Source: Thraustochytrium sp. TN22
Taxonomy: Eukaryota; Sar; Bigyra; Thraustochytrida; Thraustochytriidae
NCBI GenBank assembly: GCA_013306675.1
Contig: JABLUY010000073.1
Location: forward strand, 62,001 to 126,000
Direction of reading: 5' to 3'
Length of the DNA stretch: 64,000 nucleotides
The notes under the pieces were generated by a model. The model saw nothing but the letters and a program-made list of their open reading frames with translations, did not search any database and had not been told where the DNA came from. This document shows, one piece after another, positions 43,766 through 48,313 of the stretch. Both the position numbers and the translations under genes were made by a program. Numbering within the stretch: position 1 is the stretch's first letter; every line of letters begins with the position of its first letter.

Positions 43766-44049
43766 AAATACGGGCAAAAAAACTCGAACCGAAATTGGCA
43801 GCCAATGGGATGGCATCGAGATTGAACGACTGAATGTTGATATCCCAATCCCATCGCCCTAGACGGAGTTTAATCAGGATAGCCATATTATCCCTAGTAA
43901 ATCGGCTCTCCTGCTTGCGCTCGACTGACCTGTTGCTATCATGATTCTAATCATTTTTGGAACTTTCAACTACTGGGTTTGTATGGAAGCGTAAAGTGTT
44001 GGTCACTTCCGACTGGCCTGTGCGGATGCTGAGGCCAACTTGGGCTGCA
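43558..44049. other. Spacer downstream of PX gene
   Basis: 492 bp with a TGC triplet repeat and AT-richer DNA (about 43860-44000) than its surroundings, next to the transposon remnant. This composition shift may mark one end of the element, but I could not pair terminal repeats. Confidence 0.5.
43731..43765. repeat. TGC trinucleotide microsatellite
   Basis: Nearly twelve pure TGC copies in the probable 3' untranslated region of the PX-domain gene. Confidence 0.95.
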
Positions 44050-45042
44050 TCAAGGGCACGATGGACTCGTGCTGAGGCTGCTGCGAGAGGATCTTGAACT
44101 ATGGCTTGATGGGGTGTCGGTGTAGCTGGCTTGGGCTACGTGGTCGTTCCTGCTCTGCGCTGTAGGGGTACCGGACGAGGCACTGGCGCTGCTCGAATCG
44201 ACATGATCGAGGCAAATGGGCGAAGGTGTTCCGTTGACGTTTGTCTTGCGCTTCTTGAAGCCTTCGTGAGGCTCGACGCGCACGCGCGTGTGCCACTTGG
44301 AAAAGCAGGTTGTGCGTTCATTCTTTCTCATGAACACGTGCAGAGGCACACCGCAGATGGTGCAACGACGGTGCGTTTGCTTGCCGCAGATGACGCAGAG
44401 CCGCTTGGCGGGAATCCTCTTGTTGTTGGCGTTGAAGGATGCCTTTCCCGCTGCCTCTGAGTCATGTTGCAGTGCGGCATCGAGGCGGATGTCGCGGGCT
44501 TGGCCGTGGTTGAAGAACTTCTGCAACTCGGGGGTTCGCTTGCGCTTACCGGCGGTCACGAGGTCCCTCGCCGCTTCCCTGGTGAGCCAAGTGGGCTTGG
44601 GCATGCTTGGCTGCATGTTGAACTCCACCTGCGCCGTATCGAGCTGCCTGCTCCTGTAGACGTGACGGACCATGTCGACAGTGAGGCGGAACGAGACAGT
44701 GCTGAGCGCTTCAGAGCGGTTCACCTTGTCGCGGAGGGCCTTTAGCCCGTCGCTGTCTTCGAGGTTGCTCTTCCTCGCAGCCTGTAAGTAGCGGTAGACC
44801 ACGATGGCGTTGACAACGAGCTGCTTGTACGTGCGCAACGCGATGTTCTGGTCGCAGCTCAGATTCATGCACTGCGTGTTGGTGATCTGCTCCACGTACT
44901 GTGTGCTTCCGTCGACGCCGCCCTTTGCGACGTTGTATAGCTCCTGCGGTAAGCACTTGATGACATGCACGGGCCGCATGGGCCCCTTCAGAGCGACAAG
45001 CTTGCGCATGGCGCGCCACAGCCGGAAGTGCGAGCTCAGCAC
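44050..45042 (-). pseudogene. PiggyBac-like transposase C-terminal part with zinc-binding end
   Basis: A 330-codon open frame. The block VIKCLPQELYNVAKGGVDGS resembles the YNxxMGGVD region of PiggyBac transposases, which carries the last catalytic Asp. It is followed by a helical part (ALRTYKQLVVNAIVVYRYLQ). Near the end CVICGKQTHRRCTICGVPLH and TTCFSKWHT give the Cys/His spacing of the PiggyBac C-terminal zinc-binding domain. The usual first two catalytic Asp residues, which should lie some 100-200 residues earlier, are not seen; a nuclease-like sequence occupies that place. The frame starts at a non-ATG codon and the sequence continues upstream from it, so it is a fragment of a longer protein. 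Confidence 0.65.
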
Positions 45043-45141
45043 CGCCCCCTCCTCCTCGCCGAAGATGGCAGGTGGCTTGGGCGGCGCACCCGCTGTCGAT
45101 GCTCTGGTGCGCCCATGTCGTGAGCTTGTCCGCCCACGGTT

Positions 45142-45513
45142 TCAGAGCGCGCTCCATGGCGAGCCGGGCGTCCGGAGGCACTTCAACGAGGCAGGCGTAC
45201 AAACACGAACTCGTGCTGGCAGCAACGTAGAGCACGTGATCGATTTGGAGGACCACAGCTTGGTGCAAGACTTGCGCGCGGTGCTCGGCAGGTATGGCCT
45301 TCCACCAAGTCTCGTCCCCCACGTGTTCATCTGGGTGCTCACGATACGTGCGTCTACCGCGCCTCCAGGCGCGACGCGCGTCTTGATCTCGAAGCTGCCT
45401 AGTACTGACGATGCGTCGCACTCCGCGCCTGGAAGCCGGACGCGAGCGACTCCATCCGGCGAGACTGCGAGACCCGGAACGGTCTTGTGCTGAATGAGGC
45501 CGACCTCGAACAT
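45142..45513 (-). pseudogene. YqaJ-type PD-(D/E)xK nuclease fragment
   Basis: The stretch FEVGLIQHKTVPGLAVSPDG, followed after about 20 residues by LGSFEIKTRV, has the SPDG...ExK arrangement of YqaJ/lambda-exonuclease-type recombinase nucleases: Asp of SPDG and the Glu and Lys of FEIK. The frame then loses similarity, and the matching continuation appears in another frame at about 45060-45320. In intact proteins this domain degrades or resects DNA ends. It is placed between the acidic N-terminus and the PiggyBac-like block of the transposon remnant. Confidence 0.55.
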
Positions 45514-45916
45514 GCACTCGCACCACGCGTCGGTTCGTCGACCAACGCAAGTATGTCTTCGAAGTCTTGCTGCGCAGCGGCCTCAGCACGAGCATCCTCG
45601 TCGCCAAGCTCCTCTCCTTCTTCGTCTTCGTCCCCTGTGTCCCGCTTGTCCAGGGGCACGAACTCGCTGTCGCTGTCGCTGTCGCTGTCGTCCTCCACGC
45701 GGTGGTTAGGCCTCGCCGATGCCATGATGTCGCAGTGCGGGCCCGACTCCACGTCCAAGCGCTGCGGCAGGGGCGTGCGAGCTGAGAGCAGGCACAAGGC
45801 ACCCGCCAGGGCCGCCTGCAGCCGCGCGCCGCAGCGCCTGCGGCTCCAGCGCGCTCCGCGACGAAGTCGCGCGCGAGCTCCCCCCAAAGCCGCTCTGGGC
45901 GAACTGCCGAGCTCAT

Positions 45917-46315
45917 CTCATCCTAACCACCACGCCTTCGGCCAAAATGAATAGGGGGCAGGAGCCTTGGGTCGCTTCGAGTGGGCCTCTTCAAGCTCGG
46001 CCCCATCGCTGCGTTTTTGATCGAATGCGGAACTAACTTCGCCAGACTCTAGGCCACTTTTTTGGAGCAAATCGGGAGTAAAGTACCCTCTTAATACGCT
46101 TTAGTGCCCCCTGTGCCGGGCGTCACCGAGGGACCCCCGCGTGGTAGGCGGATACGAGTAAGCATAGAGGTGTGATTGGGATATGAATGTATGAATGAAA
46201 GATAAAAGCAAGCAAGCGCAGAGACGGCAGACGAACGCAAACGCCGCCGATACATAGCACAGATAGTTGGAGAAGCGAGAGGGCGACACACTGTCGCTGA
46301 GATCTTCTCTCTCCC

Positions 46316-46357: not shown

Positions 46358-47881
46358 TCACTGGATGGGAGAGGGAGCGGGCGGCACAAAGGGGGCAGGC
46401 GCGTGCGGGGAGTTGGGCGCGCTGTTAGCGCGAGCCTGCTCCTCAATGCTGTCAGACCGGCGACGCGCGACCTTGTGTTGCTTGGGCTTGGGCACGAACA
46501 TGGGCCAGTTCTTGATGCAACCGAGAATGTTGGCAATGACGCCAAGGGCGCCAACAAGCCAGAGCGGCATGCCGCGAAAGATGCGAAAGTCAAGGCGGTT
46601 GAGCAGGATGCTGAGGTTGCAGAGCGAGGAGATGAGCTCGTGGTGCTGCTCGGTGACGGCGTCCTTGATCTCGGCGAGGCGCGTGCGGCGCTCGTCGCGC
46701 AGCTCGTCCGGGTCGCGAAAGGGCCCGCGGTCGGGCAGACTCCCGACAGAGTCGAAGCGGTCCGAGGCGCGGCGCGTGAGCGCTGGGCGTGCGGAGCTGG
46801 AGGTGCTGGCGGACTCGTCGCTGGAGACGCTGCCGTCCTCGGAGGGGTCGGCGGAGCCGGGCGAAAGCAGGCCCTCGGCGATCCGAATGCGCTCCGCGTA
46901 GCGATCGCGCAGGCGGCGGTCCTCGTCACGCAGACTCTTCACCTGCATGAGGGAGTGGATGATGGCGAAGATGAGGCGGCCGAGCGAGGACCAGTTCTTG
47001 AGGTCCTTCCAGCGATTGACGCGCTCGTCAGCGCGCGCGCGCGCGTCGAGCGACTTGATGTGCTTGCTCTGAAGCTCCATGTAGCGCTCGTAGGACAGCT
47101 TGGAGTGCGCCTCGAAGAGCTTGCGGCGAATCTCGTCCTCACGCGGGTACCGGTTGATGAGGTTGGACTGCGCGGCCCAGACCATGTTGTCGAACATGTA
47201 GTACCAAAACGAAAAGGTGTTCATGAGCACAGCGAGCACGCGCGTGATGCGCGCGTGCAGCTTATGCGGGTGCACGCCGAGGTAGGAGTCGGGCGCCATG
47301 AGCGCGACGCGCGCCTTCTCGTACTCTTTGATCCACTTGCCGAGGCGGAAGACCTTGCGGCCGTTGCTCATGGAGTCCTCGAGCTTCTTCCAGGGCGCCT
47401 CGGGTGAGTCGGTGATGCGCGTGAGGTCGACAAAGGGCTGGCTGCCCCAGAAGAGGGCGGCGTACTGGATGACGGCCGCGGCCTTGTCACGGCCGCTGGA
47501 GCGGCCCAGCAGCACAGACACGCGCGCCACGTAGGTGGCGAGCACGCGCTCGGCGCGCTTGACCGCGCCCACGGCGCCCTTGAGCGGCTTCCCCTCGTCT
47601 ATGGGCATCTGGTACTTGTTGAACTCATAGACGGCCGTGTCCTGGCCGATGGGGTCGGCGCTGCGGATCACGAACTGCAGGTCTTCCGGCTTTTTGAGCG
47701 CCGACCGCATCGGCGACTTGGTCGCCGCGGGCGGGTCCTTCTTCGCCGCGTCCTCGCCGTCCACGGCCTCCTCGTTGATGGTCACGCTCTTGCGCCGCGG
47801 TCCCAGCGACTTGCCCCCATCTTCCTGCGGCGGCGCCACCGCCGCCAGCGCGGCCGTCTCGCCCTCCGCCACGGGCGCCAT
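46358..47881 (-). CDS. PEX11: Peroxisomal membrane division protein PEX11-like
   Basis: A 507-aa PEX11-family protein. The core at about 130-215 has DKAAAVIQYAALFWGSQPFV, SMSNGRKVFRLGKWIKEYEK, then RVLAVLMNTFSFWYYMFDNM: the amphipathic helix and first membrane region typical of PEX11. The C-terminal MPLWLVGALGVIANILGCIK is the second membrane segment before NWPMF. It is about twice the usual 230-260 aa because of a 110-residue charged N-terminal extension and an acidic Ser-rich insert before the last helix. PEX11 bends and elongates the peroxisomal membrane and recruits the fission machinery. The N-terminal RRKSVTI could be a phosphorylation site. ATG at 47881 is the first in frame; no intron. 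Confidence 0.9.
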   Translation of the reverse strand: MAPVAEGETAALAAVAPPQEDGGKSLGPRRKSVTINEEAVDGEDAAKKDPPAATKSPMRSALKKPEDLQFVIRSADPIGQDTAVYEFNKYQMPIDEGKPLKGAVGAVKRAERVLATYVARVSVLLGRSSGRDKAAAVIQYAALFWGSQPFVDLTRITDSPEAPWKKLEDSMSNGRKVFRLGKWIKEYEKARVALMAPDSYLGVHPHKLHARITRVLAVLMNTFSFWYYMFDNMVWAAQSNLINRYPREDEIRRKLFEAHSKLSYERYMELQSKHIKSLDARARADERVNRWKDLKNWSSLGRLIFAIIHSLMQVKSLRDEDRRLRDRYAERIRIAEGLLSPGSADPSEDGSVSSDESASTSSSARPALTRRASDRFDSVGSLPDRGPFRDPDELRDERRTRLAEIKDAVTEQHHELISSLCNLSILLNRLDFRIFRGMPLWLVGALGVIANILGCIKNWPMFVPKPKQHKVARRRSDSIEEQARANSAPNSPHAPAPFVPPAPSPIQ

Positions 47882-48313
47882 CTCTGCGAGCCCCTCGCCG
47901 CTCGCTCCCGCGCTTCCCGCGCTGCTCGCGCTTCCCGCGCTGCTCGCGCCTCCCGCGCTGCTCGCTGCTCGCTGCTCGCTGCTCGCGCCGCCCTTGGGCC
48001 GGACTGGTCCACCACCGCCTCGCGCGCCTCGCGCGCCTCGCCTCGCCGCGCCGCGCCGCGCGGAGGGAGGGAGGCAGCCAGGCCGGCGCGCGCTGCCGAC
48101 GGGCGGGAGGGCGGGCAGCTCGGTGGGCGTGCGACCGCGCGCTTGCTTCGCCAGCCCGCCGGCCCGCCCGCCCGCCGCGCCGCGCCGCGCCGTGCCAGGC
48201 CACCGCGCGCGGCTCGAGCCGTCGCAAGCGCGCGGACGGCCGGCGGGCGGCCGGCTCGCGCCAAGCGGTCCGCTGACGGCCGCGTCTTTTTGCTTGAACG
48301 AACGTTAACTTAC

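Follow-up and report, generated by a model that had tools for sequence, protein, structure and literature searches.

An internally deleted, high-copy piggyBac-type transposon of Thraustochytrium sp. TN22 whose relatives carry a predicted lambda-exonuclease domain inside the transposase

Exonucleases of the lambda type degrade the 5′ strand at the ends of duplex DNA, and DDE transposon superfamilies have acquired them as neighbours (ISL2EU) or as downstream domains (KolobokE). ISL2EU elements are DNA transposons that bring a YqaJ exonuclease, and the article on them calls the function of the group's extra open reading frames (ORFs) unknown (PMC4482050). KolobokE combines a DDE transposase with a PD-(D/E)XK lambda-exonuclease-like nuclease (PMC9587614). 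For piggyBac, PMC7351741 describes donor overhangs of 4 nt whose complementarity allows rejoining with no DNA synthesis, and an insertion domain that lines the target-DNA channel. Here we analyse a 2337-bp element in a 64,000-nt stretch of the Thraustochytrium sp. TN22 genome (contig JABLUY010000073.1, positions 62,001 to 126,000; the window, whose numbering is used throughout), located at 43844..46180 with its coding strand on minus. We consider it probable that this copy is a non-autonomous, internally deleted piggyBac-type DNA transposon of a kind whose transposase carries an exonuclease between its second and third catalytic Asp residues (D2 and D3), which would resect the donor break. The parts of this reading differ in strength. 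A piggyBac-type transposase with a built-in lambda-exonuclease domain is close to certain, given the element ends, target duplication, copy number, deletion junction, full-length relatives, conserved order and residues, and the predicted fold of a homologue; the predicted role of the nuclease in resecting donor ends is put forward tentatively.

The minus strand of 44050-45917 carries the coding sequence in four pieces across three frames. An acidic N-terminus (MASARPNHRVEDDSDSDSDS...) in frame f1 (45529..45725), found at 118 places in the genome, is followed in frame f0 by a nuclease core reading FEVGLIQ...SPDG...FEIK (45331..45528, inner boundary approximate), with SPDG at 45451-45462 and EIK at 45382-45390; the SPD and E columns are invariant in relatives. 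The nuclease continues in frame f2 as DETWWKAIPAEHRAQVLHQAVVLQIDHVLYV...WAHQSIDS (45092..45330, inner boundary approximate), aligned with protein P0001 up to SIDS/SIET; this piece reads HRAQVLHQ..., and in the full-length copy C394 its frame is the DDE frame. At SIDS|GAPP (45089..45094) coding passes to the +1 frame, as it does in the full-length copies C394, C109 and C81. A tail ORF of 363 aa in frame f0 (44050..45141), matched by residues 706-973 of P0003, then supplies the third catalytic Asp, C-terminal helices and a cysteine-rich domain. Within it, the Asp of LYNVAKGGVD (44911..44940) aligns with the D752 column of P0003, the third catalytic Asp, invariant in 13/13 relatives, and the cysteine-rich (zinc) domain LCVICGKQTHRRCTICG...TTCFSKWHT (44287..44400) aligns with the cysteine-rich end of P0001. 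An earlier note on this DNA had read the same minus-strand order, from an acidic N-terminus through SPDG...FEIK, a helical continuation and YNVAKGGVD to CxxC...CxxC...CFSKWHT, and our analysis bears it out. A search with the four pieces read through returned P0001 (33% identical over 75%, E 5.2e-58) together with P0002, which carries PF09588 and PF13843 in one chain, at E 1.6e-8, so the order of domains in the window is not a product of chance.

Single-frame relatives place both parts in one protein, as the earlier note had proposed for a YqaJ-type nuclease and a piggyBac-type transposase; they include C239 in the same genome, described below. Protein searches listed 15 sequences from P0002 and 51 from an alignment of 16 (queries included), and Nitzschia inconspicua and Cyclotella meneghiniana, both diatoms, are the hosts named among them. 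P0003, P0004, P0005, P0007, P0017-P0023 and P0029 are single-frame relatives. From 57 sequences we aligned P0001 and 12 long proteins whose identity to P0003 is 30-80%, the remainder being shorter. The order in these homologues is D1, D2, nuclease, D3 and cysteine-rich domain. In P0003 numbering, D215/D216 and D292 (D1 and D2) are kept in 12/12 rows that cover these columns and D3 in 13/13, and the nuclease columns N521/E522, S555-P556-D557, E575, Q619 and Q623 are invariant in 13/13. The cysteine-rich tail is equally fixed at C928, C931, C946, C949, C954 and H970; zf-Tnp_2 was matched in one of 8 scanned proteins, P0019, below its cut-off. Pfam at E 0.001 found PF13843 in 21 and PF09588 in 20 of the 47 members scanned. 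In the wider set, P0010 has LPDA in place of SPDG and P0016 is disrupted past the nuclease start. Two long proteins have additional protease-like regions at the C-terminus, P0018 with a Peptidase_C48/Ulp1 match (5e-10) and P0021 with an Otubain match (0.0092) that falls below the cut-off. When viral contigs were scanned with P0003, 4 pattern matches arose and none was confirmed.

The structure predicted for P0022 is a single piggyBac transposase fold, with catalytic and dimerisation/DNA-binding domains, around a nuclease of the PD-(D/E)XK lambda-exonuclease type. Among the Foldseek top 50, the P0022 model matched piggyBat only and the P0003 model matched no piggyBac chain; a second look with VIA-align matched piggyBac 6x67 to both models. 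The three catalytic Asp residues correspond to piggyBac D268/D346/D447, with the equivalence of columns judged by motif and fold, and the nuclease has the E, D, E-x-K and Q motifs of its class (E522, D557, E575 and Q619 in 13/13, K577 in 12/13). A 4-bp target duplication and a C-terminal cysteine-rich zinc domain, both features of piggyBac, are also present. The TTAA target of piggyBac is absent, and we therefore speak of a piggyBac-type lineage and not of canonical piggyBac.

Several results weigh against this assignment. The target is ATAT/NTAN rather than TTAA, and the flanking 4 bp differ by one base in 7/50 copies. Pfam found neither YqaJ nor PiggyBac in the four window frames; by the criterion of the earlier note this outcome on its own would have refuted the reading, but both domains are present in relatives such as P0002. 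Pfam searches of the genome likewise do not list the full-length copies, and among the three full-length copies located there is no complete single-frame transposase of the window's subfamily. Of the 12 long homologues, four (P0005, P0007, P0019 and P0022) match YqaJ and not DDE in Pfam, and P0005 reads EIET for EIKT at the Lys kept elsewhere. DDE matches end at or before position 258 of the 349 in the profile, even with the nuclease excised from P0003, and the family sequence profile compared with PDB finds LHK-Exo at 8.1e-6 and no piggyBac chain. Given these truncated matches and the missing piggyBac chain, the D3 half of the assignment rests on motif and fold.

The element itself is sharply delimited, with unrelated sequence on either side of the boundaries shared by its copies. 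Its ends read CCCAATC/GATTGGG and form a 10-bp terminal repeat with one mismatch: CCCAATCCCA on plus at 43844..43853 and, at 46171..46180, the minus-strand repeat that reads TGTGATTGGG on plus. Counting the target duplication, this inverted repeat (I9) spans 14 nt and is 93% complementary. Comparison of flanks across distinct copies identified the duplication as ATAT at 43840..43843 and 46181..46184. Among 50 distinct copies with both flanks, the 4 bp are identical in 43 (ATAT in 38, CTAT in 3, TTAT and ATAG in 1 each, TTAA in 0), and all 50 have TA at positions 2-3. In five cases a rarer flank sequence recurs at both ends of the same copy, which indicates that the four bases are duplicated target and not part of the element. 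The earlier note had suggested looking for flanking TTAA repeats, and the repeat has turned out to be ATAT.

Over 100 nearly identical shortened copies are present in the genome. A DNA search of the genome listed at least 63 matches (best 40 of 104 candidates scored), the majority of which span the full length with identity close to 100%, and end patterns with up to 2 mismatches occur at 133 places for the left end and 120 for the right, with 0 occurrences of the reversed patterns used as controls. The window copy differs by four single bases absent from the other copies compared, and it adjoins a PEX11 peroxisome gene (46358-48304, minus; PF05648, 1.2e-23). We also observed repeated self-insertion into one ATAT that starts at base 42 of the element's left end (plus, 43885..43888). 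Copies are nested at this site in C423, C37, C426, C52 and C429, and the ATAT that is single in the recipient is doubled after insertion. Instances of 2390 nt have an additional nested left-end piece of 45 bp, and C79 contains three consecutive copies with a period of 2346.

The broken frames are a property of the element and not of this copy. Among 48 distinct copies at the loci fetched, the body is exactly 2337 nt in 47, the other having +4 bp near the left end; 38/48 are identical, and the remaining 2337-nt bodies differ by 1-9 substitutions. One copy, L065 (C174), has eight clustered substitutions in 97 bp (window-equivalent 44526-44622) in a body otherwise nearly identical, which may reflect gene conversion or faulty assembly. 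The tail was found at 112 places, each time as a 363-aa open frame (best 112 of 135 candidates scored), and 112 of the 118 acidic N-termini lie in short frames of 172-187 aa, the derivative type; the other six are in C394, C109, C81, C33, C48 and C150. The near identity of these 2337-nt bodies means that the frame breaks are common to the copies, and we reject decay of a single copy, which the earlier note had read from the frame changes.

Full-length relatives explain two of the three breaks. The first, at 45528..45529 on minus, is the junction of an internal deletion of about 1.77 kb that removed D1, D2 and the first catalytic Glu of the nuclease, so the window derivative itself has lost this Glu. 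C394:153680-153830 diverges from the derivative exactly at 45528, where it reads ...GSMNEASVASSIRKQAWCECM, in C394 the N-terminal match extends to 152040, and the sequence that the derivative lacks is C394 152040-153811. At the second break, the derivative is 19 nt (net) shorter than C394 within the nuclease, between 45528 and 45309; from 45309 to the left end the two differ by 7 substitutions and no indel over 1466 nt. We rejected introns at each break: the first is a deletion breakpoint, the second a net 19-nt loss relative to C394, and at the third the two frames meet on residues 188-189 of P0001 without a gap, which makes an intron unlikely.

In C394, C109 and C81 the acidic N-terminus belongs to an open frame of 998 aa and is in phase with a match to P0003 residues 37-675 that contains no stop and comprises the first DDE half and the nuclease; in C33 the same match is interrupted by one TAG. 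A stretch of C394 reads LVIDDELVGSRAGDV and AADRGYSKK, which hold D1 and D2, and a second stretch, reading GSMNEASVASSIRKQAWCECM, joins the derivative at 45528. The earlier note had held that the first DDE half is missing and that the nuclease sits in its place, which describes the shortened copies but not the full-length ones, where both are present. It had also proposed looking for other genomic copies with the same domain order: C239 has the order in a single frame, and the derivative copies compared share the frame changes.

As judged by protein matches, C239 is a diverged relative whose frame of 1213 aa holds a stop-free match over P0003 175-761, with D1, D2, the nuclease and D3. The corresponding match in C151, in a frame of 1227 aa, covers P0003 440-973, from the nuclease to the cysteine-rich domain. 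A further diverged relative at C48:80553-80738, possibly of another subfamily, is 76% identical over the acidic N-terminus and has a 625-aa open frame. Open-frame lengths were taken only from rows with a single match, and figures of 510 or 551 aa for tails otherwise given as 363 aa were set aside, as 510 equals 146 + 1 + 363 and seemingly runs through the stop ahead of the tail where one frame holds two matches. A free-standing YqaJ gene of the SPDG...VEIKCP type (L001, C78:69347-69727; 1.8e-21) and DDE_Tnp_1_7 proteins of the same genome (L002 in C398, L003 in C16 and L004 in C76) were considered and placed outside the fusion family; in L002 and L003, DDE_Tnp_1_7 was matched over the whole profile, with no YqaJ.

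The third break is shared by the full-length copies. Match coordinates modulo 3 and the sequence of C394 place the tail of C394, C109 and C81, with the third Asp and the cysteine-rich domain, in the +1 frame as counted from the frame of the DDE half and the nuclease. This shift at SIDS|GAPP may be a programmed frameshift, a fixed lesion or a systematic assembly error. If it is a fixed lesion before D3, the window's subfamily would be wholly dead and its derivatives would have been moved by a related transposase, a serious contender that we rate a little below even chances. Such an account agrees with the +1 tails of C394, C109 and C81, with the 363-aa frames of all 112 scored tails (of 135 candidates), and with the existence of C239, whose one stop-free match spans D1, D2, nuclease and D3. 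It sits less well with the 38/48 identical bodies, hence very recent movement, and with C81, C109 and C394, which score equally and stay open over 998 aa, as long-decayed copies would not; the shift may also be due to a systematic fault of assembly or to programmed +1 frameshifting. A programmed shift, if true, would meter the complete enzyme. The broader proposal, that in a piggyBac-type lineage of diatoms and other protists, with the exonuclease as insertion domain, a single polypeptide excises the element and then resects the donor break, so that seamless cut-and-paste gives way to copy gain through homologous gap repair, and that one subfamily reaches D3 by a programmed +1 frameshift, is speculative, and we regard it as improbable in this full form.

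Our preferred explanation, an internally deleted derivative of a transposase that resects the donor break, can be set out as a series of steps. The transposase would excise as piggyBac does, by nicking and forming hairpins on the element ends, leaving 4-nt overhangs on the donor, and would integrate at NTAN sites. The built-in 5′-3′ exonuclease would then resect the 5′ donor ends and block simple re-ligation. A donor resected in this way would tend to undergo homologous gap repair from a sister, restoring the element with a net gain of a copy, and interruption of this repair would yield internally deleted derivatives such as the window copy. Interrupted gap repair fits the origin of the window derivative without proving it. 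More generally, the fusion may explain the internally deleted high-copy derivatives.

An active nuclease might instead serve the chemistry of transposition, trimming or opening hairpin or flap ends of the excised element or processing target DNA next to the insertion site. Both active sites are conserved together, and the models put the nuclease, flanked by D2 and D3, close to the position of the insertion domain that contacts target DNA in piggyBac (PMC7351741). The same paper describes piggyBac as opening its own hairpins and its donor gap as repairable without synthesis (PMC7351741). Furthermore, a processive 5′-3′ exonuclease would destroy unprotected element ends, and the ends observed are precise and the duplications mostly exact. 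We consider such a role unlikely.

Still less probable is that the nuclease fold does not cut and serves as an insertion domain that only gives structure or holds DNA. P0005, which is without the catalytic Lys, and P0010, with LPDA for SPDG, would suit an inert domain, and the insertion domains of DDE transposases are generally non-catalytic. Against it, the Glu, Asp, Glu and two Gln residues are invariant in 13/13 at identities to P0003 down to 30%, and the Lys is kept in 12/13. That the fusion is an assembly or gene-prediction artefact joining two genes can be set aside almost entirely: most homologues do come from short contigs, but the order is common to the 12 long proteins across their range of identity to P0003, DDE and nuclease share single open frames at C81, C109, C394 and C239, and the model is predicted to fold as one piggyBac transposase around the nuclease.

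In the open-access literature searched (titles and the beginnings of abstracts), we found no description of a nuclease inside a piggyBac-type domain. Nitzschia proteins bear the automatic names 'YqaJ viral recombinase domain-' and 'PiggyBac transposable element-', indicating that annotation pipelines had already noticed the parts. The family would combine two predicted centres of DNA cutting in a single chain, with the second lying between D2 and D3 and close to where DDE enzymes have their insertion domains. In ISL2EU and KolobokE the exonuclease is beside or downstream of the transposase, and coupling within one chain makes the transposon's gain from an exonuclease directly testable. Users of piggyBac as a tool would find here an enzyme of natural origin whose excision may not be seamless.

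Compared with piggyBac of Trichoplusia ni (PDB 6x67) and piggyBat (9c0f), the proteins described here have about 260 extra lambda-exonuclease residues between D2 and D3, their DDE_Tnp_1_7 matches are weak or absent, and their target is ATAT/NTAN where piggyBac uses TTAA. Compared with lambda exonuclease, LHK-Exo and YqaJ (PF09588), the nuclease is embedded in a transposase and is not a free-standing recombination exonuclease. In KolobokE, the transposase domain, of the Kolobok superfamily, is followed downstream by the nuclease, and the ends are 5′-RR (PMC9587614); here the nuclease is inside the piggyBac-type domain, between D2 and D3, and the ends are 5′-CCC, and we rejected membership in Kolobok on these grounds. 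In ISL2EU, YqaJ is mostly encoded by a second ORF of its own, next to a PIF/Harbinger-ISL2EU-Spy transposase (PMC4482050). Membership there was likewise rejected, as DDE and nuclease share one open frame in C81, C109, C394 and C239.
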